The position numbers were made by a program, and so were the translations under genes. The notes under the pieces are model-generated. The model saw nothing but the letters and a program-made list of their open reading frames with translations, did not search any database and was not told the origin of the DNA. Below are positions 51,630 to 61,883 of a stretch of 64,000 nucleotides of DNA, in pieces (position 1 is the stretch's first letter; every line of letters begins with the position of its first letter). Source of the DNA: Maribellus maritimus (GTDB lineage: Bacteria > Bacteroidota > Bacteroidia > Bacteroidales > Prolixibacteraceae); NCBI RefSeq assembly GCF_022267315.1, contig NZ_JAIKLE010000009.1:1-64000 (forward strand). Reading direction: 5' to 3'.

Positions 51630-53561
51630 TTACAATTTTACAACTTTCTCAGTTCTATATTCTGAATTTGATTTTACTTTCAGAAAATAAATTCCGGCCG
51701 GTGAATTTTGCAAAGCTGAAATCTTTAAATTTTGATTTAAGATTGTTGTATTCCTATAAATAATTTTTCCCGAAATATCATATAAAACAACCTGTTCGGC
51801 ATTCGAAGGAAGCTCAATACTGAAATCTGATTCAACAGGATTAGGATATACTTTTATTTCTTCGCCATTTTCAGAAATAAAATCAGATGAAACCGGAACT
51901 GAAACATACATTTCAAAAGTGTGGTAAACTTTTTTTCCGTTTGAAGTGGCCGAAATTGTAATGTTGGCAGTACCCGTCATGTTTTCAGTAATATTTAATG
52001 AAAGTAAGGTTTCCTGCGCATCTGGTGTTCCGCCCTGAACGATGGCTCCAATAAGCAAATCCTGATTGTCAATAGTTTCGAGCTGAATAGTCATTTCTGA
52101 ATCGTCGTTATCGGGATCCGAAAAAACAGAATCAAGTGAAATATAATAAACATGATCGGGGTAAGTTGCATCGTCAATTGTTGCTACAGGATGTAAAATC
52201 TCTGGCGCCAAATCCTGGTGATTTAACTGGTCGATACAAAAATAAGCTGGCGTATTCATTCCCCAGTCACCAACATCGGAAGAAGAAAGGTTGAATTTTA
52301 ACGCTGCAATATCTCCCAGCGATGATAAATCAAGCCATTTCCAATCGTTTATAATATAGTCTTCAGAGCTGTTTTCTGACCTGAAATCGGCCAGATAGTA
52401 TTCTATTGTGCCCGTTGTGTCGCCTGCCTCAGAAATGCCAAAAATGTCAACTTTAAACCAGTCAGGATCAGTGCCATTTTCACCTCCAAATTTTTTTGAA
52501 TAGGCATCACCGTTTTTCATCGATAAATATGCGTAAGTTGAATTGGTAATATATAATCCGGAAACAACTGTTTTTTCAAAGTTGATTTCAGAGTCCATCG
52601 AAGCATATGAAACTGCGTATGTTGGAGTTTCGAGAGCCCCGCTTCCATGCACAGCACTGTACTGGTTGCTCCATCCTTCGGTTTGATTATCAGTTATATT
52701 TGACGCTGCAAAACCACTCCAGCTGCCCCACTCTGTATTGTAATCATTCAGAAATGTAAACCCTCCGCTTGTAAAGTGCCCGGTTTCGTCGGAACCGTTA
52801 TAAAAACTTTCTGCTCCCAGTTCCAGATTTTCAAAATCAGCTTCTGCAAGCATTTCCGGTGTGTCTGGTGAGGTTCCGTTAAAATCATCGATACAAAAAT
52901 AGGCCGGAGTATTCATTCCCCAGTCGCCAACATCACTTGACTCCAACCCGATAGAGAGAGAAACAATTACACCTAAGCTACTCAAATCGAGCCATTCCCA
53001 GGTTTTTAAAATATAATCGTTCGCTGAATCATCAGACGTAAAATCAGCAAGATAAAAATCAACGGCTGTTTCATTTCCAAAAATGTCAGTCGCGGAAACC
53101 GTTAACTTAAAATAATCGGGATCTTTACCATCTTCTCCCCCAAATTTTTTGGAATAGGCATCTCCATCCTTCATTGAAAGATACGCGTACGTTGAATTGG
53201 TCACATAAAAACCGTTTAGTTGAAGGGGATTTTCAAAAACCATATCCAATCCTCCCGACGCGTAAATAACAGCATAATTCTTAGATTGATGGCCTGAAGC
53301 AGTTATCGCGCTGTACTGATTTCCCCAGCCGGCTGTTACAGAATCTTTCATGTTTGAAACAGAAAAGCCCGCCCAGCTTCCCCAATCGGCATTATAATCG
53401 TTTGGAAATACAAAACCGCCACTTTTAATTTCTCCGGAACCATCTGCTCCATTCCAATAGGAATCGGATTCCAGAACCACATCGTCGAAAGTTGCTACCT
53501 GCTGGGCATTTACAGAAAACAGGGTAACCCAAAACCCTACAAAAAAGTAAATTTTTTTCAT
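51630..53561 (-). CDS. Tandem DUF4465 surface protein with T9SS tail, under cobalamin riboswitch
   Basis: The 643-residue protein has a signal peptide ending near VNAQ. Two closely similar DUF4465 domains follow, about residues 25-230 and 240-455. Each runs from a SGGF(V/T)F motif and NDYN, then WGSW, through NSTYAYLSMK and GDAYSKKFGGE, to SSDVGDWGMNTPAYFCID. An Ig-like segment comes next, then a T9SS sorting domain from about 570 (IKVYPNPVESDFSIEL). It should sit on the cell surface. A cobalamin riboswitch lies in its leader, so it is made when B12 is scarce. It follows the btuG-like gene on the same strand. Confidence 0.88.
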   Translation of the reverse strand: MKKIYFFVGFWVTLFSVNAQQVATFDDVVLESDSYWNGADGSGEIKSGGFVFPNDYNADWGSWAGFSVSNMKDSVTAGWGNQYSAITASGHQSKNYAVIYASGGLDMVFENPLQLNGFYVTNSTYAYLSMKDGDAYSKKFGGEDGKDPDYFKLTVSATDIFGNETAVDFYLADFTSDDSANDYILKTWEWLDLSSLGVIVSLSIGLESSDVGDWGMNTPAYFCIDDFNGTSPDTPEMLAEADFENLELGAESFYNGSDETGHFTSGGFTFLNDYNTEWGSWSGFAASNITDNQTEGWSNQYSAVHGSGALETPTYAVSYASMDSEINFEKTVVSGLYITNSTYAYLSMKNGDAYSKKFGGENGTDPDWFKVDIFGISEAGDTTGTIEYYLADFRSENSSEDYIINDWKWLDLSSLGDIAALKFNLSSSDVGDWGMNTPAYFCIDQLNHQDLAPEILHPVATIDDATYPDHVYYISLDSVFSDPDNDDSEMTIQLETIDNQDLLIGAIVQGGTPDAQETLLSLNITENMTGTANITISATSNGKKVYHTFEMYVSVPVSSDFISENGEEIKVYPNPVESDFSIELPSNAEQVVLYDISGKIIYRNTTILNQNLKISALQNSPAGIYFLKVKSNSEYRTEKVVKL

Positions 53562-53673
53562 TGTAAAATTTTTTAGTTCAACAAATCATTTTACAATACC
53601 AAAACCCATGGGAAAATTATAAGGTAAATTACCTCAAGCTTTTGGTCCCGAAAGCTTTTAATATTGTTTTAAA

Positions 53674-53830
53674 TGGCAGGTCTTCTGGCTTGTCCCAATT
53701 GGTGGCTGCCTTCCCGCTCCGATAATACGGAACAGTGGCGAGGGTTGCTACCAACATGAAAGACTTACAGCTGCGGGTACAGCTCCGGAATTCTTGCCGG
53801 TTATTTTGGCAAGTCACCGGATTCCCTTTT
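53674..53830 (-). promoter_or_regulatory. Cobalamin riboswitch 1
   Basis: Read on the minus strand, the region has the conserved blocks of AdoCbl-type riboswitches in order: GGGAAT near the 5' end, CCGGAGCTGTACCCGCAGCT, the GCCACTG box, CGGGAAGGC and finally AGCCAGAAGACCTGCC. A minus-strand TCTCTTTG near 53837-53844 may be the promoter. The switch precedes the DUF4465 gene by about 110 bases and should reduce its expression when cobalamin is bound. No clear terminator hairpin follows, so control is probably at translation. Confidence 0.93.
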
Positions 53831-53887
53831 CATCTCCAAAGAGAACCAATTCTTTATAAAAATAGATCTAAGTTTCCTAAACCTGAT

Positions 53888-54934
53888 TCACCTGAACAAA
53901 AAATCAGACGGATTTACCCCAACCTTAAAAGAGTCGTTTAAAACTCCTGATTGAGAATACCGGTAAATAATTGCATCCTGAGTATAATCTATTGCATCGG
54001 AAACATAAATCTCGTTGTTATTAGGGTTCAGTCCCAGACTGTAAAAAAGTTTATCCGCACCTGAAATAAACGCAGAATCGGGCAAAGTTTTACTTTCAAC
54101 AGCCATTTTACAAACTCCCTGGTTTATAAAATACAATGTGTCTTGGGTGTTATTCAGTTCCAAATCGTAAGGATTAGAGTCGTCTTCAAATCGAAGAATC
54201 TTTTCAACCGTAAAAGTCTCAGGATCGACCCTTGTTAATGCAGGCTGTTCATTTCCCGCTGATGAACCTTCAAAACCGCCATCAGAAAAAATCCATAGTT
54301 TCCCGTTTTTATCCACTTTTAAATCTTTGGGCTGAAGCGGTACCTCTATTTCGTCAATCAATTCATCTTTTTCAGAATCTATAACCAGAATTTTATTGTC
54401 GTACGACCAGCTGGAGATGTATACGTAATTTCCAACTTTTGCCATTTGTTCTGAAGTATGTTCCTCTGAAAGATCAATTTGCCCTGTTTTTTCTAATGTT
54501 GAAGGATTAAAAACAGTAATATGGTGAGCATACAAATCAGAAATATAAGCTTTCTCTTCCGTGATAAAAAGAATATAACGTGGTGAAGTCAATCCGGTTA
54601 TTGCCCCTTTAAACGCTGCTGTTTTGGGATCTATCACATATATCTTTCCGGAATTATTGGCCACAAGAAACAACGAATTTCCGTTTAAATACATCGACTG
54701 TGCCACGTCACCCAGCGGGACATTATTGCGGGCATAAAATAAATCATTTTGAACGCTTTTTGTTTTATAATTGTAAAATGAAAGCGAAGCATTTCCGTAC
54801 ATAAAATTTCCTTCACAACTTATAAATACTCCGTTTTCAGTATCAAGATCAAAAAACACAGTTTCGACCGGCTCGTCAGTACACGCTGCCAGGAAAAGGA
54901 TCGTAAATAATATGTAAGCTATTTTTCGAATCAT
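53888..54934 (-). CDS. btuG: BtuG-like beta-propeller lipoprotein (cobalamin binding)
   Basis: The 348-residue protein has a lipobox with Cys18 (LAAC) followed by acidic residues that favour surface export. The mature part is a seven-bladed YncE/DUF5074-like propeller (VFISCEGNFMYGNASLSFYN, KIYVIDPKTAAFKGAITGL, KILVIDSEKDELIDEI). This is the family of BtuG, the Bacteroides surface lipoprotein that captures vitamin B12 and hands it to BtuB. Its start overlaps the btuB stop by 4 bp. Function is inferred from family, riboswitch and neighbour. Confidence 0.85.
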   Translation of the reverse strand: MIRKIAYILFTILFLAACTDEPVETVFFDLDTENGVFISCEGNFMYGNASLSFYNYKTKSVQNDLFYARNNVPLGDVAQSMYLNGNSLFLVANNSGKIYVIDPKTAAFKGAITGLTSPRYILFITEEKAYISDLYAHHITVFNPSTLEKTGQIDLSEEHTSEQMAKVGNYVYISSWSYDNKILVIDSEKDELIDEIEVPLQPKDLKVDKNGKLWIFSDGGFEGSSAGNEQPALTRVDPETFTVEKILRFEDDSNPYDLELNNTQDTLYFINQGVCKMAVESKTLPDSAFISGADKLFYSLGLNPNNNEIYVSDAIDYTQDAIIYRYSQSGVLNDSFKVGVNPSDFLFR

Positions 54935-56889
54935 TTTTTATAGTTCAAAGCCATTGAAAAAGAATAATACCGGCCAGGCATGGGGCGCCATAAAATACTT
55001 TGGTAGTCTTCATTAAAAAGATTTTCTGCTGTAAATTTTATATTCATACGAAAAGAATTTATTTCCAATATTTTATCCAACGAAACCTTGCTTAGCCAGT
55101 ACGGATTTAAAACCCGCTCGAACTCAGACTCTTCATTGCTTGAATTGGTATATCTTTTTCCTGTGTATTCCACATCAAATTTTAATGTAAAATTTTTAAC
55201 TGAAGCGGCGGCGAAAAGATTTCCTTTATGTTTGGGAATGTATATCAGCTGTTTTCCGCGCGATTTGTCAACCGAACGCATCGCATTTTGATTTGTAGTA
55301 TGTGTGAAAGAATAGTTTCCTCCCGATTTTAATTTGAAGTGTCTCAAATTTTTGTCTGCTGAGAACCGGTACTCCGCCCCTCTCGACAAAACTTCTTTTA
55401 CATTGTTTGCTTCCCAATAATATGCACCACTTTGCGAAGGTTGCCAAACAATCCAATTATCAATAAAAGAAACAAAACCGGTTATTTCATTATCAAATGA
55501 AAAGTGGCTGTTTTCTGTTTGCCAGGATAACGACAAGTCACCGGTGTAGCCGTCTTCCGGCAAAAGGTCGGGGTTTCCACCGGGCAACCAAAACAAATCA
55601 TTTAAAGTGGGTTTGTGGTAATTTCGTGCTACATTTGATTTTAACAACAATGGCCATCTTTTTGTTACCTGCCACTCAAAACCAGCACTCGGAATAAAGG
55701 GTTCTACATGGTTGTCATAATTTTCAGAGCGCATCAACATAAAAGCAGCAAAACGATCGGATGGTTTCATGTGCCAATTAAAGAGAAGACTGGTTTCGAA
55801 ACGTTCCTTTTTGTAGCCTTCGCCAGCTATTTTGTTATTAATTTGTACTTCGTAATAATTTATATCTGCACTAACTGTAGCATAGGTTTTCTCATTAAAT
55901 TCTCTAAAAATCCTGAGATGATTTTGAAAGCCTTTTTCTTTACTTTTAGAATTTTCATTAACAAAATTAAATTCAGGCGTTGCCCGGTAATAATTGAGTA
56001 TTGTCGAATTTAATCCTGTAAAAAAATGATAATTAAATTTATCAGTATACTTTTTTATATCGTACTGAACCCGAAGTTGATCGTCTTTTTGATATTCTTC
56101 CCTCTCGCTACCTTCGTATGACATTAATTGAGGCAAATTTCTGTCGCTTTTTTGAAACCATATGCGTAGAGACATTATTTCGCTGTTAAATGACCGGTAA
56201 TAAAATTCCTGCAGAATACCGCCTTTTGAGTAATCCGCATTTTCTAAAGTGTCATTCCGTTGTGGAATAACGCCATGGTTATAATACGGGAAATTATTTT
56301 CAGAACCTTCGTAAAACAAGCGGGTACTTGATTTTAAACGACCACCGCCAAGCAAAACCTTTACGAATGTTTTTCGCGTTTGAAAAGAGCTTGTTTCAAA
56401 CAATCCGGCCAATTCCAGGTTTGTATCCCAGTTTATTTGGTTGTTTAAATGAATACTTCCACCAAGCGCCCCGCTGCTTTCGGCCATAGAACTCCCTCCG
56501 TGAAGCAGGTAGACGTCATCGGCAAAAAAAACAGGCAGCAACGATAAATCTGCAATTCCGTTCATTGGAGAATTCAGGTTCATACCATTCCATAATACCT
56601 GTGTGTGTGTGGCGGCAGTTCCCCGAAAACTTGCTGTTGCTGATGAACCGCGCCCGTACGACTTTATAAAAACCGGAGTGTACTCCGAAATTAATTCAGA
56701 AAGAGAAGTAGTTAAAGTTGCGATCCTTGCCATCGAATCAGGACGAGTTAGTTTTAATCCGGCTTCTTCCACTTTTCGTTTGGCGAGTACTTTTACTTCT
56801 TCAATATGAATGGTATCGGTCAGATTCTGCGCTTCTACAGTTGTAAAAACCAATATTAAAAAACTGAATATCAGAAGTTTAATTCTCAT
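54931..56889 (-). CDS. btuB: BtuB-like TonB-dependent cobalamin transporter
   Basis: The 652-residue outer-membrane protein has a signal peptide (VEAQ), a TonB box (DTIHIEEVKV) near residue 25, a plug (SATASFRGTAATHTQVLWNG, SSGALGGSIHL) and a 22-strand barrel ending in a Phe/Tyr-containing strand (YYSFSMALNYKK). It lies between a surface protein gene and the btuG-like gene, with 1-bp and 4-bp overlaps, downstream of a cobalamin riboswitch, so cobalamin uptake is the clear role. No CarboxypepD-like domain or SusD partner is present. Confidence 0.9.
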   Translation of the reverse strand: MRIKLLIFSFLILVFTTVEAQNLTDTIHIEEVKVLAKRKVEEAGLKLTRPDSMARIATLTTSLSELISEYTPVFIKSYGRGSSATASFRGTAATHTQVLWNGMNLNSPMNGIADLSLLPVFFADDVYLLHGGSSMAESSGALGGSIHLNNQINWDTNLELAGLFETSSFQTRKTFVKVLLGGGRLKSSTRLFYEGSENNFPYYNHGVIPQRNDTLENADYSKGGILQEFYYRSFNSEIMSLRIWFQKSDRNLPQLMSYEGSEREEYQKDDQLRVQYDIKKYTDKFNYHFFTGLNSTILNYYRATPEFNFVNENSKSKEKGFQNHLRIFREFNEKTYATVSADINYYEVQINNKIAGEGYKKERFETSLLFNWHMKPSDRFAAFMLMRSENYDNHVEPFIPSAGFEWQVTKRWPLLLKSNVARNYHKPTLNDLFWLPGGNPDLLPEDGYTGDLSLSWQTENSHFSFDNEITGFVSFIDNWIVWQPSQSGAYYWEANNVKEVLSRGAEYRFSADKNLRHFKLKSGGNYSFTHTTNQNAMRSVDKSRGKQLIYIPKHKGNLFAAASVKNFTLKFDVEYTGKRYTNSSNEESEFERVLNPYWLSKVSLDKILEINSFRMNIKFTAENLFNEDYQSILWRPMPGRYYSFSMALNYKK

Positions 56890-59234
56890 TACTTTTTAAT
56901 GAATTTAAATGTTTTAACCTTCGATTTTTTAACAATTTTCAACATATAAATTCCGGGATTAAAATACTGAACATCAATATTTTTGCTAGTTGTAAAAGCC
57001 GATTCTGACCATATATTTTTACCATTCATATCAAAGATATACATTTGTGCACCAGCCAAGTTTTTTCCATTGACAATCAATTTACTATCAACGGGATTTG
57101 GGAATATCTGTGTTTTCAAATCAGCAAAACTCCGGTTCGAAGTAATTATTTTCTCAGATATCAAAACTGCATCTGTTTCTGAATAAATCGTTAGCGGAGG
57201 CGAGGAAGAAATAAGAACAACTGCTTTTCCTGATTCATCTGAAAAATAGTTTGTTTCCCAAGTAAAAATTTCCTGGTTATAAACAGGAACCAATTCGGTT
57301 TCCGTAATCACCCCATCTGAAAATGTGCATGCGGCTTTTTGCAGTGTTACTTCAACTTCATCGTTTATACTGGCCGAGTCTTTATTCACATTCATTTGAG
57401 TAAAATTCCAGGGATTAATAATTTCTGAAATGTGATACAGCACAATGGTGTCACCATCTGCAATATCAACTTTATCAAAATCATTTAAATACTGGCTTCC
57501 TTTTACACGAGCAATCCAAGCCTTTGCAAAGGCAACCGGAGCTGTTTTTCCGCCCCAACCGTATGTAAATTCGCCTTCTTTCTCAACAGAATATAAATAA
57601 AGTTTGCCTCCAGAATTTTCATCATCGCGCAAATCAAAATTGACACCAGATTTCTGAAGCCCGGAAACTACTGCATGCGCCAATACATGATGTTCAATTC
57701 CTGAAAAATCATTGTTCCGGTTTTCAACAAAAGCATTTAAATCCGGAAGTCTCACCTCAATTTTTTGCAGCGGTATAATATTTTCTGTTTCGGTTTTTGC
57801 TGTAAAGTATACATGAATAATGTCGCTTTCTGATGATATCTTAAAACTGACTGATTTTTGAATAAACCCCTCCATCCGAAAAGTGATGGAACCATTTCCC
57901 TGTTGCGAAGCCACAAAGTAACTTTTTCCTTCGATTTCAATAATACTACCGACTCCCGGTGTTTCCAACTCAAATTGAATTTCAGCTTCCAGTTTATCTT
58001 TGTTATTATCGAAAACATTGGCAGCAAGTAGCACCGTATCACCAATATATACCGATGATAAATCGGATAAGATCTCAATCGAATCAGGAGCAACTACATT
58101 TATTTTGGTGGTTTTAGCCTTGCCGTTTGAGGAAACAAGAATCTCTGTCATTCCGATATTTTCAGCGTTTAAAACTCCTAGAGAGTTAACTGTAGCCACT
58201 TCCTGATTTTGTGATATAAACGAAAAAGTTGACTCTTCTAATTTCCCATTCTGAAAAAATGCAGCCTCAAGTTGTAATGTTTCGCCGACAACTATTTTTG
58301 ATTTATGATGAAACACAACCAACAGTTCACTGTCACCCGACATTTCTGCATTTGCATCTACATCAACAAGGTAAGCCACATCAGTAGAAATTTCGCCCAG
58401 CCAGCCTACACTGGCAAGATTGCCTGTTGTTATTTTTACAAAATGAATGGAGTCCAAATCCACATAATTTCCATGGTCATCAACTGCCCACGAAATATCT
58501 ATGGGGTCTCCACCAGCACCCTCAGTTTCATTTGTATACGGATTGTCCGGAATGCTTAAGTCTACTCCCTGTTTTCTTGCATGAACATCGGCATACCCAA
58601 AATCCAGAGCTTCTGTAACGTATTGTAGAGGATTTGAACTGTCAACTGCAGGTGCGAGTAATGTGCCTTTAAAAGTAACTGAATCCTGTGGATAACCTGG
58701 AAAAAAAATGCTTGTTGGGTAATATTCCTGCGTATTATAGCTATTTGCTTTCAAAGTTCCGGTATCACCCAGATTGTCCTTCCAAAAAATATTACGCGTT
58801 GTGGTTTTAAAATAAGTAATACCGTAATCAGTTCTGGTTCCCGAATGAAAATGCTGGCTGCCTTTTATTTCATACCAGGTGTCATCTGCTATTCCGTTTT
58901 TATTTTTATCTTTCATTACCCACACCACACCTGGCTCCGATGAACCGCTAAAAGCATTTCCAAAAATGGTAAAGTCAATTCCGTATGGATTTTCAGGATC
59001 ATTTACACAGGCCTCTTTAAACCCCACCACAATAGTTCCGCCAAAGCTGCCCAACGAAACCATGTTGGTTCCTTCTGCAGGCATATTTTCAGCAGCCTGT
59101 GGTGTCCCGATAGACTCAATGTTAATGTGTTGTCCCGGCGCTGGTTTATATTCCATTACCCGGTTGACTACATTTTGCGAAATGGCAAAATAGGGTATCC
59201 CAAGAATTGCATACAATAATTTTATTTTTTTCAT
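56889..59234 (-). CDS. T9SS surface protein with Ig-like and transcobalamin-like segments
   Basis: The 781-residue protein has a signal peptide (residues 1-20). An N-terminal beta domain (about 22-290; GTNMVSLGSFGGTIVVGFKE, SEPGVVWVMKDKNKNGIADD) is seen in cell-surface proteins of Bacteroidota B12 loci. Two Ig-like domains (about 300-465) follow. Residues 470-610 carry VKGSQYLNDFDKVDIADGDT with LYHI, like the W..NG...DGD pattern of DUF4430/transcobalamin C-terminal domains. A T9SS tail closes it (IFPNPVDSKLIVNG). It is the first gene after riboswitch 2 and overlaps btuB by 1 bp. B12 binding is inferred. Confidence 0.8.
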   Translation of the reverse strand: MKKIKLLYAILGIPYFAISQNVVNRVMEYKPAPGQHINIESIGTPQAAENMPAEGTNMVSLGSFGGTIVVGFKEACVNDPENPYGIDFTIFGNAFSGSSEPGVVWVMKDKNKNGIADDTWYEIKGSQHFHSGTRTDYGITYFKTTTRNIFWKDNLGDTGTLKANSYNTQEYYPTSIFFPGYPQDSVTFKGTLLAPAVDSSNPLQYVTEALDFGYADVHARKQGVDLSIPDNPYTNETEGAGGDPIDISWAVDDHGNYVDLDSIHFVKITTGNLASVGWLGEISTDVAYLVDVDANAEMSGDSELLVVFHHKSKIVVGETLQLEAAFFQNGKLEESTFSFISQNQEVATVNSLGVLNAENIGMTEILVSSNGKAKTTKINVVAPDSIEILSDLSSVYIGDTVLLAANVFDNNKDKLEAEIQFELETPGVGSIIEIEGKSYFVASQQGNGSITFRMEGFIQKSVSFKISSESDIIHVYFTAKTETENIIPLQKIEVRLPDLNAFVENRNNDFSGIEHHVLAHAVVSGLQKSGVNFDLRDDENSGGKLYLYSVEKEGEFTYGWGGKTAPVAFAKAWIARVKGSQYLNDFDKVDIADGDTIVLYHISEIINPWNFTQMNVNKDSASINDEVEVTLQKAACTFSDGVITETELVPVYNQEIFTWETNYFSDESGKAVVLISSSPPLTIYSETDAVLISEKIITSNRSFADLKTQIFPNPVDSKLIVNGKNLAGAQMYIFDMNGKNIWSESAFTTSKNIDVQYFNPGIYMLKIVKKSKVKTFKFIKK

Positions 59235-59318
59235 TCCCCTTTGTTTTTAAAACCATGGGGAAATAAAACTTCAGGTATTGAACCGTCGCTTTTATTCCCG
59301 AAAGCATTTTTTTGAAAA

Positions 59319-59448
59319 TGGCAGGTCTTCTGGCTTACTCTTTTTTCCGCTCCTTCCCGTTCATTTGAGTTAAACAGTGGATAATGCCGAAAAATTATGA
59401 GCTTACAGCTGCGGGCACAGCTCCGGTTTTTCACCGGATTCCCTTTTT
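59319..59448 (-). promoter_or_regulatory. Cobalamin riboswitch 2
   Basis: The minus strand shows the same ordered blocks as riboswitch 1: AAAAAGGGAATCCGGTG, CCGGAGCTGTGCCCGCAGCT, CCACTG, CGGGAAGGAGC and AGCCAGAAGACCTGCC. It is about 25 bases shorter, through shorter variable stems. It lies 85 bases before the first gene of the B12 uptake operon (59234) and should switch off the three-gene operon when cobalamin is plentiful. Confidence 0.94.
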
Positions 59449-59476
59449 ACATTTTTAATGAACCATTTTTCGTCTG

Positions 59477-59484
59477 CAAAGTTA
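59477..59484 (-). promoter_or_regulatory. Promoter of the B12 uptake operon (TAACTTTG on minus strand)
   Basis: This is an exact fit to TAnnTTTG on the minus strand. Transcription should begin near 59470, so the riboswitch starts about 20 bases into the RNA. Confidence 0.6.
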
Positions 59485-59552: not shown

Positions 59553-61883
59553 ATGAAAAAGAGTATACTCTATATTATCCTGATTACGTTACATATCAGC
59601 AGCACAGTTAAAGCGCAAGTAAACAGCGATGCGGTAATCACCGGCCACGTGGTATCGAATGGTGAGCATCTTCCTTTTGTAAATATTTATCTTGACCGAA
59701 CAAACTACGGTACAACTACCGATGTTACAGGTCATTACATGATGGTAGACCTCCCGGTTGGAAAATATACATTGGTAGCCAAAATGGTTGGTTATAAAAC
59801 CGCTCAAAAAGAAATTGAGTTAAAAGCCGACGAAACACTTGAAATAAAATTCGATCTGGAAGAGGAATTTATTCGTGTGGATGAAGTTGTAATCACCGGA
59901 ACCAAAACATTTAAAAGACAGACTGATAACGCTGTAATTGTAAATGTATTGGATGCAAAATCTATTGAAAATATTGCAGCACAAACAGTTTCTGAGTCAT
60001 TAAATTTCCAGCCGGGATTGCGTATGGAAACCGATTGTCAAACCTGTAACTATTCACAACTCAGAATGAATGGTCTGGGTGGTGCTTACAGCCAGATTCT
60101 GGTCAACAGTCGTGCCGTTTTCAGTCCTTTAACCGGTTTGTACGGATTGGAACAAATGCCATCAGAAATGGTAGAGCGAATAGAAGTCGTACGCGGTGGC
60201 GGCTCTGCGTTGTACGGTTCCAGCGCTATCGGCGGGACTGTAAATATCATTACACGGATGCCACAACGAAATTCATATGAAATAACCACCAATGCTTCTG
60301 TTGTGGGAGAAGATGCGGCTGATCTGTCGGTTCATGGAACACTAACTGCATTGTCGCAGAAAAGAAATGCCGGTGTTGCTCTTTACACATCTTACCGCAA
60401 AAGAGACATGTATGATCACAACGGGGACAATTTTTCTGAAATGCCCAAACTGGAGAATAATTCCTTTGGCTTAAATTCTTTTTTTAATTTGGATGAAAAT
60501 CAAAAACTGGAGGCCAATTTTTCAAGTATGTACGAATACAGATACGGAGGTGAAATGGTGGATAAACCAGCTTACCTGGCAACACAATCCGAAGAGAGAA
60601 CACATAACGTACTGATGGGAGGAATCAATTACGATTATATCAGCGATAACAACCAAACCAGTTTTTCACTTTATTCAGCCGGACAATATACGGGCCGTAA
60701 ACATTTTACAGGAATAGCGCCAGATGACAGTGAGAAACTAACTAAATACAATTTTAATCCTCCTTACGGAAGTTCAATAAATTATACCGTACAATTTGGC
60801 GGACAGGTCAATCATTTGATACATAACTTTATAAAAGGTTCAAACAACATCACTTTTGGAGCGGAATACAAGGTAGATGATGTTTGGGACGAAATTGAGG
60901 CGTACAATTACCTTATTGACCAAAATGCCCGAAACTTTGGAAGCTTTCTACAAAGTGACTGGTCGCTCACAGCCAAAACAACATTGTTAACCGGTGTTCG
61001 TGCCGACAAACATAATTTTGTTAAAAATCTTATCCTGAATCCCCGGATTTCATTTTTATATAAACCAAATACAGATGCGCAGTTGAGACTTTCCTGGTCA
61101 ACTGGCTTCCGTGCGCCGCAAGCATTTGATGCCGATATGCATATTGCTTTTGCCGGTGGTGGTATTCAAACGATTCAGCTTTCTGATGATTTAAAAGAAG
61201 AAAAATCACAAAGCTGGAGCGCTTCATTAAATTGGGACAAGCCAACGGAGAAACATATTTTTGGCTTTACTATAGAAGGTTTTTATACCCGCTTAAATGA
61301 TGCTTTTATTCTGGAAGAAATTGGTACCACTGAAGATGGAAATTCAATAATGGAAAAACGAAACGGAGGACAAAGCAATGTTCGTGGTATTACGCTTGAG
61401 TTGCGTGCCAATTATAACCGTAAAATCCAGCTGGAAGGTGGTTTGACCCTACAGAAAAGTCAATACGAAGATATTGTAGCCTGGTCGGAAGAATTGCCGG
61501 GGACAAAAGACTATTTAAGAACTCCGGAAACCTATGGTTATTATACCTTTACCTGGACTCCAGGGGCTAAATTCAAAGCTTCTCTGGCCGGTATTTACAC
61601 GGGAACCATGTTCGTTCCACATTATGGTTTGACTGACGACGCCGGAACGCCGGAGCAGGATATACTATTTAAGTCGCCCTCTTTTCTTGAAAACAACCTG
61701 AAAATTTCTTATACATTTAGTAGTATTCGTCTTGACTCTTCTATTGAGCTGTTTGCCGGAGCAGGAAATTTATTTGATCAATATCAGGATGATTTTGATT
61801 CGGGTAAAAACCGTGACAGTGGTTACATCTATGGCCCCGCGAAACCCAGAAACTTTTTTATAGGAATAAAAATTTATAATTAA
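59553..61883 (+). CDS. TonB-dependent receptor with CarboxypepD-like domain and C-x2-C plug motif
   Basis: The frame opens at 59397 inside riboswitch 2, but the ATG at 59553 (MKKSILYIILITLHISSTVK) starts the signal peptide and is chosen, giving 776 residues. Residues 28-110 are a CarboxypepD_reg-like domain (AVITGHVVSNGEHLPFVNIY). The plug has the unusual motif ETDCQTCNYSQLRMNGLGG (C-x2-C) and SALYGSSAIGGTVNIIT, followed by a barrel ending FFIGIKIYN. The substrate is unknown; the Cys pair and the Fur-like box nearby suggest a metal or metal complex, and the B12 operon is its divergent neighbour. Confidence 0.85.
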   Translation: MKKSILYIILITLHISSTVKAQVNSDAVITGHVVSNGEHLPFVNIYLDRTNYGTTTDVTGHYMMVDLPVGKYTLVAKMVGYKTAQKEIELKADETLEIKFDLEEEFIRVDEVVITGTKTFKRQTDNAVIVNVLDAKSIENIAAQTVSESLNFQPGLRMETDCQTCNYSQLRMNGLGGAYSQILVNSRAVFSPLTGLYGLEQMPSEMVERIEVVRGGGSALYGSSAIGGTVNIITRMPQRNSYEITTNASVVGEDAADLSVHGTLTALSQKRNAGVALYTSYRKRDMYDHNGDNFSEMPKLENNSFGLNSFFNLDENQKLEANFSSMYEYRYGGEMVDKPAYLATQSEERTHNVLMGGINYDYISDNNQTSFSLYSAGQYTGRKHFTGIAPDDSEKLTKYNFNPPYGSSINYTVQFGGQVNHLIHNFIKGSNNITFGAEYKVDDVWDEIEAYNYLIDQNARNFGSFLQSDWSLTAKTTLLTGVRADKHNFVKNLILNPRISFLYKPNTDAQLRLSWSTGFRAPQAFDADMHIAFAGGGIQTIQLSDDLKEEKSQSWSASLNWDKPTEKHIFGFTIEGFYTRLNDAFILEEIGTTEDGNSIMEKRNGGQSNVRGITLELRANYNRKIQLEGGLTLQKSQYEDIVAWSEELPGTKDYLRTPETYGYYTFTWTPGAKFKASLAGIYTGTMFVPHYGLTDDAGTPEQDILFKSPSFLENNLKISYTFSSIRLDSSIELFAGAGNLFDQYQDDFDSGKNRDSGYIYGPAKPRNFFIGIKIYN

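Follow-up and report, generated by a model that had tools for sequence, protein, structure and literature searches.

A putative vitamin B12 capture locus of Maribellus maritimus with two cobalamin riboswitches and type IX sorting tails on two of its four products

Genes, leaders and tails of the locus

Positions 51630-59448 of the first 64,000 nucleotides (nt) of contig NZ_JAIKLE010000009.1 of Maribellus maritimus (Bacteroidales, Prolixibacteraceae; RefSeq assembly GCF_022267315.1), a stretch referred to here as the window, hold four genes and two riboswitches of a locus that is probably controlled by vitamin B12. An earlier note, made from the sequence alone, had read the region as two cobalamin riboswitches on one strand, one ahead of a coupled operon (surface protein, BtuB and BtuG) and the other ahead of a separate gene for a DUF4465 protein, with tails of the type IX secretion system (T9SS) on two of the four products. 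Both riboswitches, the four genes and the two tails were confirmed. The features are listed below in the direction of transcription.

59303-59482, minus strand: cobalamin riboswitch aptamer 1 (RF00174; 114.4 bits, E 6e-28, full model 1-189), upstream of the BtuH-BtuB-BtuG operon
56889-59234, minus strand: 781-residue protein with signal peptide, BtuH domain, immunoglobulin-like Big_2 domain, conserved module and T9SS type A tail (profile and structure-sequence matches)
58362-59177, minus strand: its BtuH-type (B12-binding) domain, residues 20-291 (7biz 1e-37, 8blw 5e-36)
57390-57830, minus strand: its strongly conserved module, residues about 469-615 (from the orthologue alignment)
56892-57107, minus strand: its T9SS C-terminal sorting domain (PF18962 44.6 bits, TIGR04183 53.1 bits)
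54931-56889, minus strand: BtuB, TonB-dependent B12 outer-membrane transporter, 652 residues (Bacteroides BtuB chains 8bmx_C 6e-90 and 8p98_A 7e-82; Plug domain)
53888-54934, minus strand: BtuG, beta-propeller surface lipoprotein, 348 residues (8bmx_D 3e-95 and other BtuG chains; DUF5074 100 bits; lipobox LAAC)
53658-53865, minus strand: cobalamin riboswitch aptamer 2 (RF00174; 102.7 bits, E 1e-24, full model 1-189), upstream of the DUF4465 gene
53559-53598, minus strand: hairpin pairing the start codon of the DUF4465 gene, a candidate expression platform at the end of the second leader (TATTGTAAAAT...ATTTTACAATG)
51630-53561, minus strand: 643-residue protein, tandem DUF4465 (BtuJ-type) domains followed by a T9SS type A tail (DUF4465 361.6 bits; relatives 9hmu and 9fct)
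52881-53387, minus strand: DUF4465 repeat 1 (179.1 bits; NSTYAY and MNTPAYF motifs present)
52224-52733, minus strand: DUF4465 repeat 2 (197.1 bits; four conserved BtuJ1 hydrogen-bonding residues kept)
51633-51851, minus strand: T9SS C-terminal sorting domain of the DUF4465 protein (PF18962 46.4 bits, TIGR04183 51.4 bits)

When both strands of the whole window were scanned at Rfam gathering thresholds (31.5 bits for RF00174), exactly two matches were returned, both to the Cobalamin family and both on the minus strand; the whole genome holds four. At such E-values chance is no concern, and the arrangement recurs in relatives. The first aptamer, of which the region marked in the earlier note leaves out 34 nt, ends 68 nt before the first operon gene. 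Since that gene overlaps btuB by 1 nt and btuB overlaps btuG by 4 nt, the three form a coupled operon, as the note had proposed. The DUF4465 gene lies 326 nt behind btuG and has the second riboswitch to itself: aptamer 2 sits between the two genes and ends 96 nt before the DUF4465 start. Taken by itself, the window's leader of the DUF4465 gene folds better than its shuffles (z -2.8). For the start-codon hairpin at its end, 15 pairs were predicted on 11 sequences (the window and 10 relatives of our choosing, with start codons set by us in four), of which 3 show changes in both partners and 4 are disrupted in one or two sequences. From sequence and predicted fold, the DUF4465 gene is putatively under translational control. 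A sigma-70 scan found fewer sites than the shuffles did (17 against a mean of 24), and we therefore claim no promoter; terminator-like sites in the same scan numbered 16 (shuffle mean 7). A generic Bacteroidota promoter pattern matched once in the window, outside the locus, a number expected by chance.

BtuB is a TonB-dependent barrel homologous to BtuB proteins of solved structure, and BtuG is a homologous propeller and a lipoprotein; the identities given to both in the earlier note stood. No T9SS tail was found in either of them among matches at E up to 0.01. In the other two products a T9SS type A sorting domain scores above the cut-offs of both curated libraries (27 bits for PF18962, 23 bits for TIGR04183), and the genome encodes the translocon SprA (2712.6 bits) and the sortase PorU (1274.8 bits, cut-off 420), so that each of the two combines a sorting domain with the machinery that T9SS type A cargo calls for. 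Their secretion and anchoring by this system is accordingly a prediction from sequence. The N-terminal signal of the 781-residue protein has no Cys and therefore no lipobox; it differs in this from the surface lipoprotein BtuH, and we call it a BtuH-domain T9SS protein rather than BtuH. The 643-residue protein likewise has no Cys in its N-terminal signal, which sets it apart from the lipoprotein BtuJ.

Published work on the BtuJ family, to which DUF4465 corresponds, covers both B12 binding and structures (cited passages of PMC12751083 and PMC13398666). For BtuJ1, four conserved hydrogen-bonding residues are named, Tyr146, Asn241, Thr242 and Tyr245 (PMC12751083, in a passage where the two Asn numbers are interchanged). 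A hand count on the alignment places them in the NSTYAY and MNTPAYF motifs of repeat 2, with all four kept. Because these contact residues are kept, B12 binding is well supported as a prediction for the DUF4465 protein. For the BtuH domain it is less sure, since the named contacts are mostly changed (see below). The latter matches the BtuH domains of 7BIZ, which is BtuH2, and of 8BLW, which is BtuB1G1 with a BtuH domain carried by its BtuG1 (PMC10404256, passage cited).

Behind the BtuH domain, the module at residues 469-615 is highly conserved among orthologues (for example, LYLYS.EKEG.FTYGWGGK) and, among the open reading frames (ORFs) fetched, is confined to BtuH-domain T9SS proteins of the window's type. 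Neither Pfam (E up to 1) nor PDB gave a match for it. In two AlphaFold predictions its block-mean predicted local distance difference test score was about 28-48, an unreliable model, while the residues after about 607 were predicted as a more confident beta-rich domain. A transcobalamin/DUF4430 identity, suggested by a sequence pattern, gained no support: no Pfam or PDB match backed it, and a PF14478 search of the organism's own genome at E up to 10 did not list the module.

Several neighbouring and paralogous genes were observed in passing. A divergent TonB receptor with a carboxypeptidase-regulatory domain (59553-61883, plus strand) starts 70 nt from riboswitch 1; the whole-window Rfam scan gave it no riboswitch of its own, and a similar receptor holds the same position in four other loci (L039, L041, L043, L047). 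Elsewhere in the genome (G000), a second riboswitch-led B12 locus (contig C122:40710-55957; L037, L108) encodes BtuB, a BtuG-type protein, a BtuH-domain lipoprotein, a DUF6580 protein and two large proteins. One, of 943 residues, has a DUF5074 propeller, four FN3 domains and a T9SS tail; the other, of 2296 residues, has a BtuH domain and a C terminus that is tail-like by eye. With a lipoprotein and a T9SS-tailed protein at this locus, one genome mixes both anchors. At a third riboswitch locus (C129:54000-69254; L036), a TonB receptor matching the BtuB profile is followed by genes that by eye are PepSY, CbiK, BtuF, BtuC, BtuD and CobQ-like.

Conservation of the locus and of its anchors

Cobalamin riboswitches were found in all 35 family genomes searched. 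The neighbourhood survey of DUF4465 called for in the earlier note bore out the association: each of the 37 DUF4465 ORFs of 33 family genomes has a same-strand cobalamin riboswitch at most 8 kilobases upstream, and 32 of them have it within 400 nt (two of the 37 are pieces of a single broken gene in G076; aptamer and predicted ORF start overlap in G085). Apart from the window's, 34 genomes of the family are DUF4465-positive (33 were fetched), and 10 of them have all four genes together. In these ten (G014, G019, G031, G037, G039, G059, G061, G064, G075 and G082) the BtuH-domain and DUF4465 proteins are without exception tailed and BtuG untailed; in G037, G059, G064 and G082 the DUF4465 gene follows the operon with no second riboswitch. 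Over the whole sample, a hand count gave 32 distinct loci with all four gene types, 22 with a tailed and 10 with a lipidated DUF4465 protein. At least one tailed BtuH protein is present in 18 of the former and in none of the latter. As a separate observation, four genomes of one genus (g11: G046, G065, G076, G086) have 6 to 13 cobalamin riboswitches each, compared with 1 to 5 for the remaining 31 genomes of the search, and broken DUF4465 copies stand behind a riboswitch still over the cut-off in two of them (G076:C1:1269872-1271772, a split ORF; G046:C1:1339504-1339791, with two in-frame stops).

DUF4465 was found in 135 of 295 genomes of a sample of the order, in 58 of 149 of a sample of relatives and in 11 of 392 of a phylum-wide sample, the window's genome included. 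The last of these figures suggests that the domain is mainly a matter of this order and rare elsewhere in the phylum. Because the phylum sample was too sparse for a comparison of anchors, the order sample was used. Of its 135 positives, 27 were already among the relatives, 100 were fetched and 8 were left out (G557, G559, G613, G643, G645, G716, G733, G744); four positives of the relatives sample (G046, G097, G108, G148) were not fetched. This made 153 genomes besides the window's, seven of which gave no counted protein, theirs being incomplete or already counted through a named record (G136, G627, G687, G717, G738, G741, G752). The resulting set, which leans to the window's relatives and excludes the window's own protein, comprises 158 distinct complete DUF4465 ORFs from 146 Bacteroidales genomes. 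Neighbouring ORFs were classed with purpose-built profiles.

After merging of the classes, 102 of the 158 proteins were tailed (2 of them ambiguous), 52 lipidated (9 by eye) and 4 other. The picture was similar in the evenly drawn order sample alone (115 genomes, 123 proteins: 82 tailed, 38 lipidated, 3 other) and in the window's family (33 genomes: 23, 13 and 1). Tail and lipobox are alternatives, only 2 of the 158 being flagged as both by our strict lipobox rule. A looser rule flagged 10 proteins as both; the ones inspected proved to have type I signals that contain an internal Cys. The strict rule left 13 proteins in neither class, which by eye are 9 lipoproteins with an odd lipobox, 3 split-ORF pieces and 1 protein with another tail type; it passes 43 of 80 BtuG-type and 13 of 50 BtuH-type proteins, many of the missed BtuG having a lipobox by eye. 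Under this rule, the 140 genomes with SprA (counting G701, whose match is weak) yielded 100 tailed and 40 lipidated proteins, with 2 both and 10 neither, and the six without SprA yielded 3 lipidated and 3 neither, or 6 of 6 lipidated under the looser rule. The association of tail with SprA (Fisher's test, p = 0.002) is supportive only, because the genomes are related and six alone lack SprA.

As controls, the tail profiles matched none of 87 BtuB and 2 of 80 BtuG-type propellers, one of the two being the paralogue at the C122 locus of this genome. Among 50 BtuH-domain proteins without DUF4465, 24 were tailed and 13 passed the strict lipobox rule. A tree of 208 DUF4465 domains (a quick FastTree run, with 65 of 205 inner branches weak) required at least 8 changes between tail and lipobox, far fewer than with shuffled labels: anchor type is inherited within clades, yet has been switched repeatedly.

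The survey also turned up unusual DUF4465 proteins. Giants of 900 to 3027 residues account for 36 ORFs, and 29 of these match a T9SS tail (L045, L065, L076, L202, L205, L258, L262 and others), in a count where some loci appear twice under different ids and some ORFs are cut by contig ends. DUF4465 and BtuH domains are fused in single T9SS-tailed proteins at L137, L142, L150/L197 and L245, which supports a joint role of the two domains. Outside the phylum, DUF4465 occurs in Planctomycetota and in a bin labelled Actinomycetota (L153, L167; L149, L152, L155, L157, L159, L162), with up to 55% identity to the window's protein over the best segment. Two of these proteins have a PEP-CTERM motif, and others a C-terminal stretch that is dockerin-like by eye and without a Pfam match; DUF4465 proteins may have a third way of being exported or anchored.

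Proposed role and alternatives

The locus is real and conserved, probably works in B12 capture, and is made from known parts. We hold it very likely that it captures and imports B12 (cobamides), and that the tailed BtuH-domain and DUF4465 proteins reach the surface through the T9SS and feed BtuB-BtuG. Under scarce B12, both riboswitches would permit expression. BtuB would bring the vitamin across the outer membrane, with the surface lipoprotein BtuG as its lid, and the two tailed proteins would concentrate B12 and pass it to the pair. The basis for this account is riboswitches, protein families, tails, export machinery, gene order and DUF4465 pocket residues, all read from sequence; B12 binding, the direction of transport, repression by B12 and the hand-over are what they would lead one to expect.

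Several observations weigh against this account. The transporter scored 75 bits with the TIGR01779 equivalog model, far under its 599.7-bit cut-off, and the product is filed as a Bacteroides-type BtuB by homology, not as that equivalog. The fold of the first leader was no better than that of its shuffles (z -1.1), in an analysis that covered the expression platforms in part. No BtuB or BtuG gene lies in the fetched stretch around 49 of the 102 tailed and 33 of the 52 lipidated DUF4465 genes, and the comparison by export machinery includes only six SprA-free genomes. In the BtuH domain, just one of the four B12 contacts named for BtuH2 (Tyr510, Trp577, Trp511 and His476; PMC8941943, passage cited) is identical, namely Trp577 (W278), on a mapping that applies a chain offset of 100, which agrees with the letters of all four residues. 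At the position of His476, the window's domain is one of 6 with Asn among 61 aligned BtuH domains, 51 of which have His.

These last changes (His476 to Asn, Tyr510 to Gln and Trp511 to Tyr) are also what could be expected had the BtuH-domain protein lost tight B12 binding and become a scaffold or a binder of other corrinoids, leaving B12 to BtuG and the DUF4465 protein; the long additional conserved module would suit such a role. We nevertheless regard this as distinctly unlikely, given that elsewhere the domain is strongly conserved in an alignment of 10 orthologues and that the gene heads a riboswitch-led operon shared with BtuB and BtuG in nine of the ten four-gene relatives (in G039 the DUF4465 gene is first). 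A different doubt concerns where the tailed proteins end up. T9SS cargo can be released, and the binders might mainly enter the medium or ride on vesicles as diffusible, siderophore-like B12 carriers in place of anchored antennae, in which case tandem DUF4465 domains would increase the capacity per molecule. Vesicle-borne BtuJ is reported to deliver B12 in Bacteroides thetaiotaomicron (PMC12751083, passage cited). The tails of the window, however, are of the TIGR04183 type A and PorU is present in the genome, and such carriers are in our judgement improbable. In studied species, type A tails go with attachment by the PorU sortase.

The tails may also be a generic habit of surface display in the lineage, with an export route that follows descent and has no meaning for B12 capture. 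This is a doubtful explanation, though one to be taken seriously, for tailed and lipidated proteins cluster strongly on the DUF4465 tree, with 8 switches of anchor, and lineage therefore explains most of the pattern. Descent fits less well with the use of both anchors in T9SS-bearing genomes (about 100 tailed and 46 lipidated proteins, 6 of the latter by eye), with the rarity of tails on the BtuG-type propellers, which in Bacteroides are seated on BtuB (2 of 80), and with the presence of both anchors at the second B12 locus of this genome. A bolder extension of the preferred account would be that T9SS-bearing Bacteroidales moved B12 capture off the lipid anchor to multivalent surface antennae or shed carriers exported by T9SS (here a BtuH domain joined to the conserved module, and tandem DUF4465 pockets; in other genomes giants of up to about 3000 residues). 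The module at 469-615 would then be one more domain that binds corrinoids, perhaps with a transcobalamin-like beta-grasp fold; we offer this as a long shot.

Competition for B12 has been worked out in gut Bacteroides, where the capture proteins are lipoproteins. If the proposed role of the tailed proteins is true for many Bacteroidales, models of B12 capture and sharing would need a second class of surface binder, and T9SS mutants should have B12 phenotypes. It would also be a reason to look again at those DUF4465 proteins that PMC13398666 labels 'periplasmic'.

Comparison with known systems

A search of the open full-text literature, with most subscription papers and preprints outside it, found no T9SS-exported or T9SS-tailed B12 binder, and publication elsewhere is possible. 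Within the literature searched, neither the anchoring of BtuH- and BtuJ-type binders by T9SS nor how often it occurs seems to have been described. In Flavobacterium psychrophilum, a cobalamin riboswitch has been placed at a TonB transporter, in the part of the source consulted. According to the cited part of PMC13398666, over 70% of DUF4465 proteins are lipoproteins and the rest have periplasmic signals. One protein of that study, 'Fluta' of Fluviicola, is reported to bind B12 and may belong to the tailed class. The window's protein is a member of this family (IPR027828/PF14717) by profile and by its four B12-contacting residues, and in our Bacteroidales set 102 of 158 members are T9SS-tailed, whereas the main text of that paper, in the portion seen, makes no mention of T9SS, type IX or sorting. 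With T9SS type A cargo (TIGR04183), the two tailed proteins share the signal peptide, the C-terminal sorting domain and the presence of SprA and PorU in the genome. The transcobalamin-like SLBB beta-grasp proteins (PMC1796856, passage cited) are likewise secreted multi-domain proteins, some of them B12-binding. The module at 469-615 resembles them vaguely in the succession of its secondary-structure elements, as seen in a model that is unreliable, and with no sequence support.

The closest known systems are B12 loci 1 and 2 of B. thetaiotaomicron (btuB, btuG, btuH, btuJ and btuK; passages of PMC8941943, PMC10404256 and PMC12751083), which have in common with the window riboswitch control, BtuB with the lipoprotein BtuG, and BtuH-domain and DUF4465 proteins. 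The earlier note had held that the T9SS products extend the BtuB-BtuG pair. This stands for anchor and domain architecture, which do differ, but not for new kinds of component, because its 'surface protein' and 'DUF4465 protein' are relatives of Bacteroides BtuH and BtuJ. The B. thetaiotaomicron counterparts are listed as lipidated (signal-sequence table of PMC12751083, in the part cited), while those of the window have no lipobox and are T9SS-tailed; the window's BtuH domain is N-terminal, with about 420 more residues before the tail, and its DUF4465 domain is in tandem. As judged from sequence, what sets the window's locus apart is not the protein cast but this architecture and the anchor, a T9SS type A tail in place of a lipobox on both accessory proteins.

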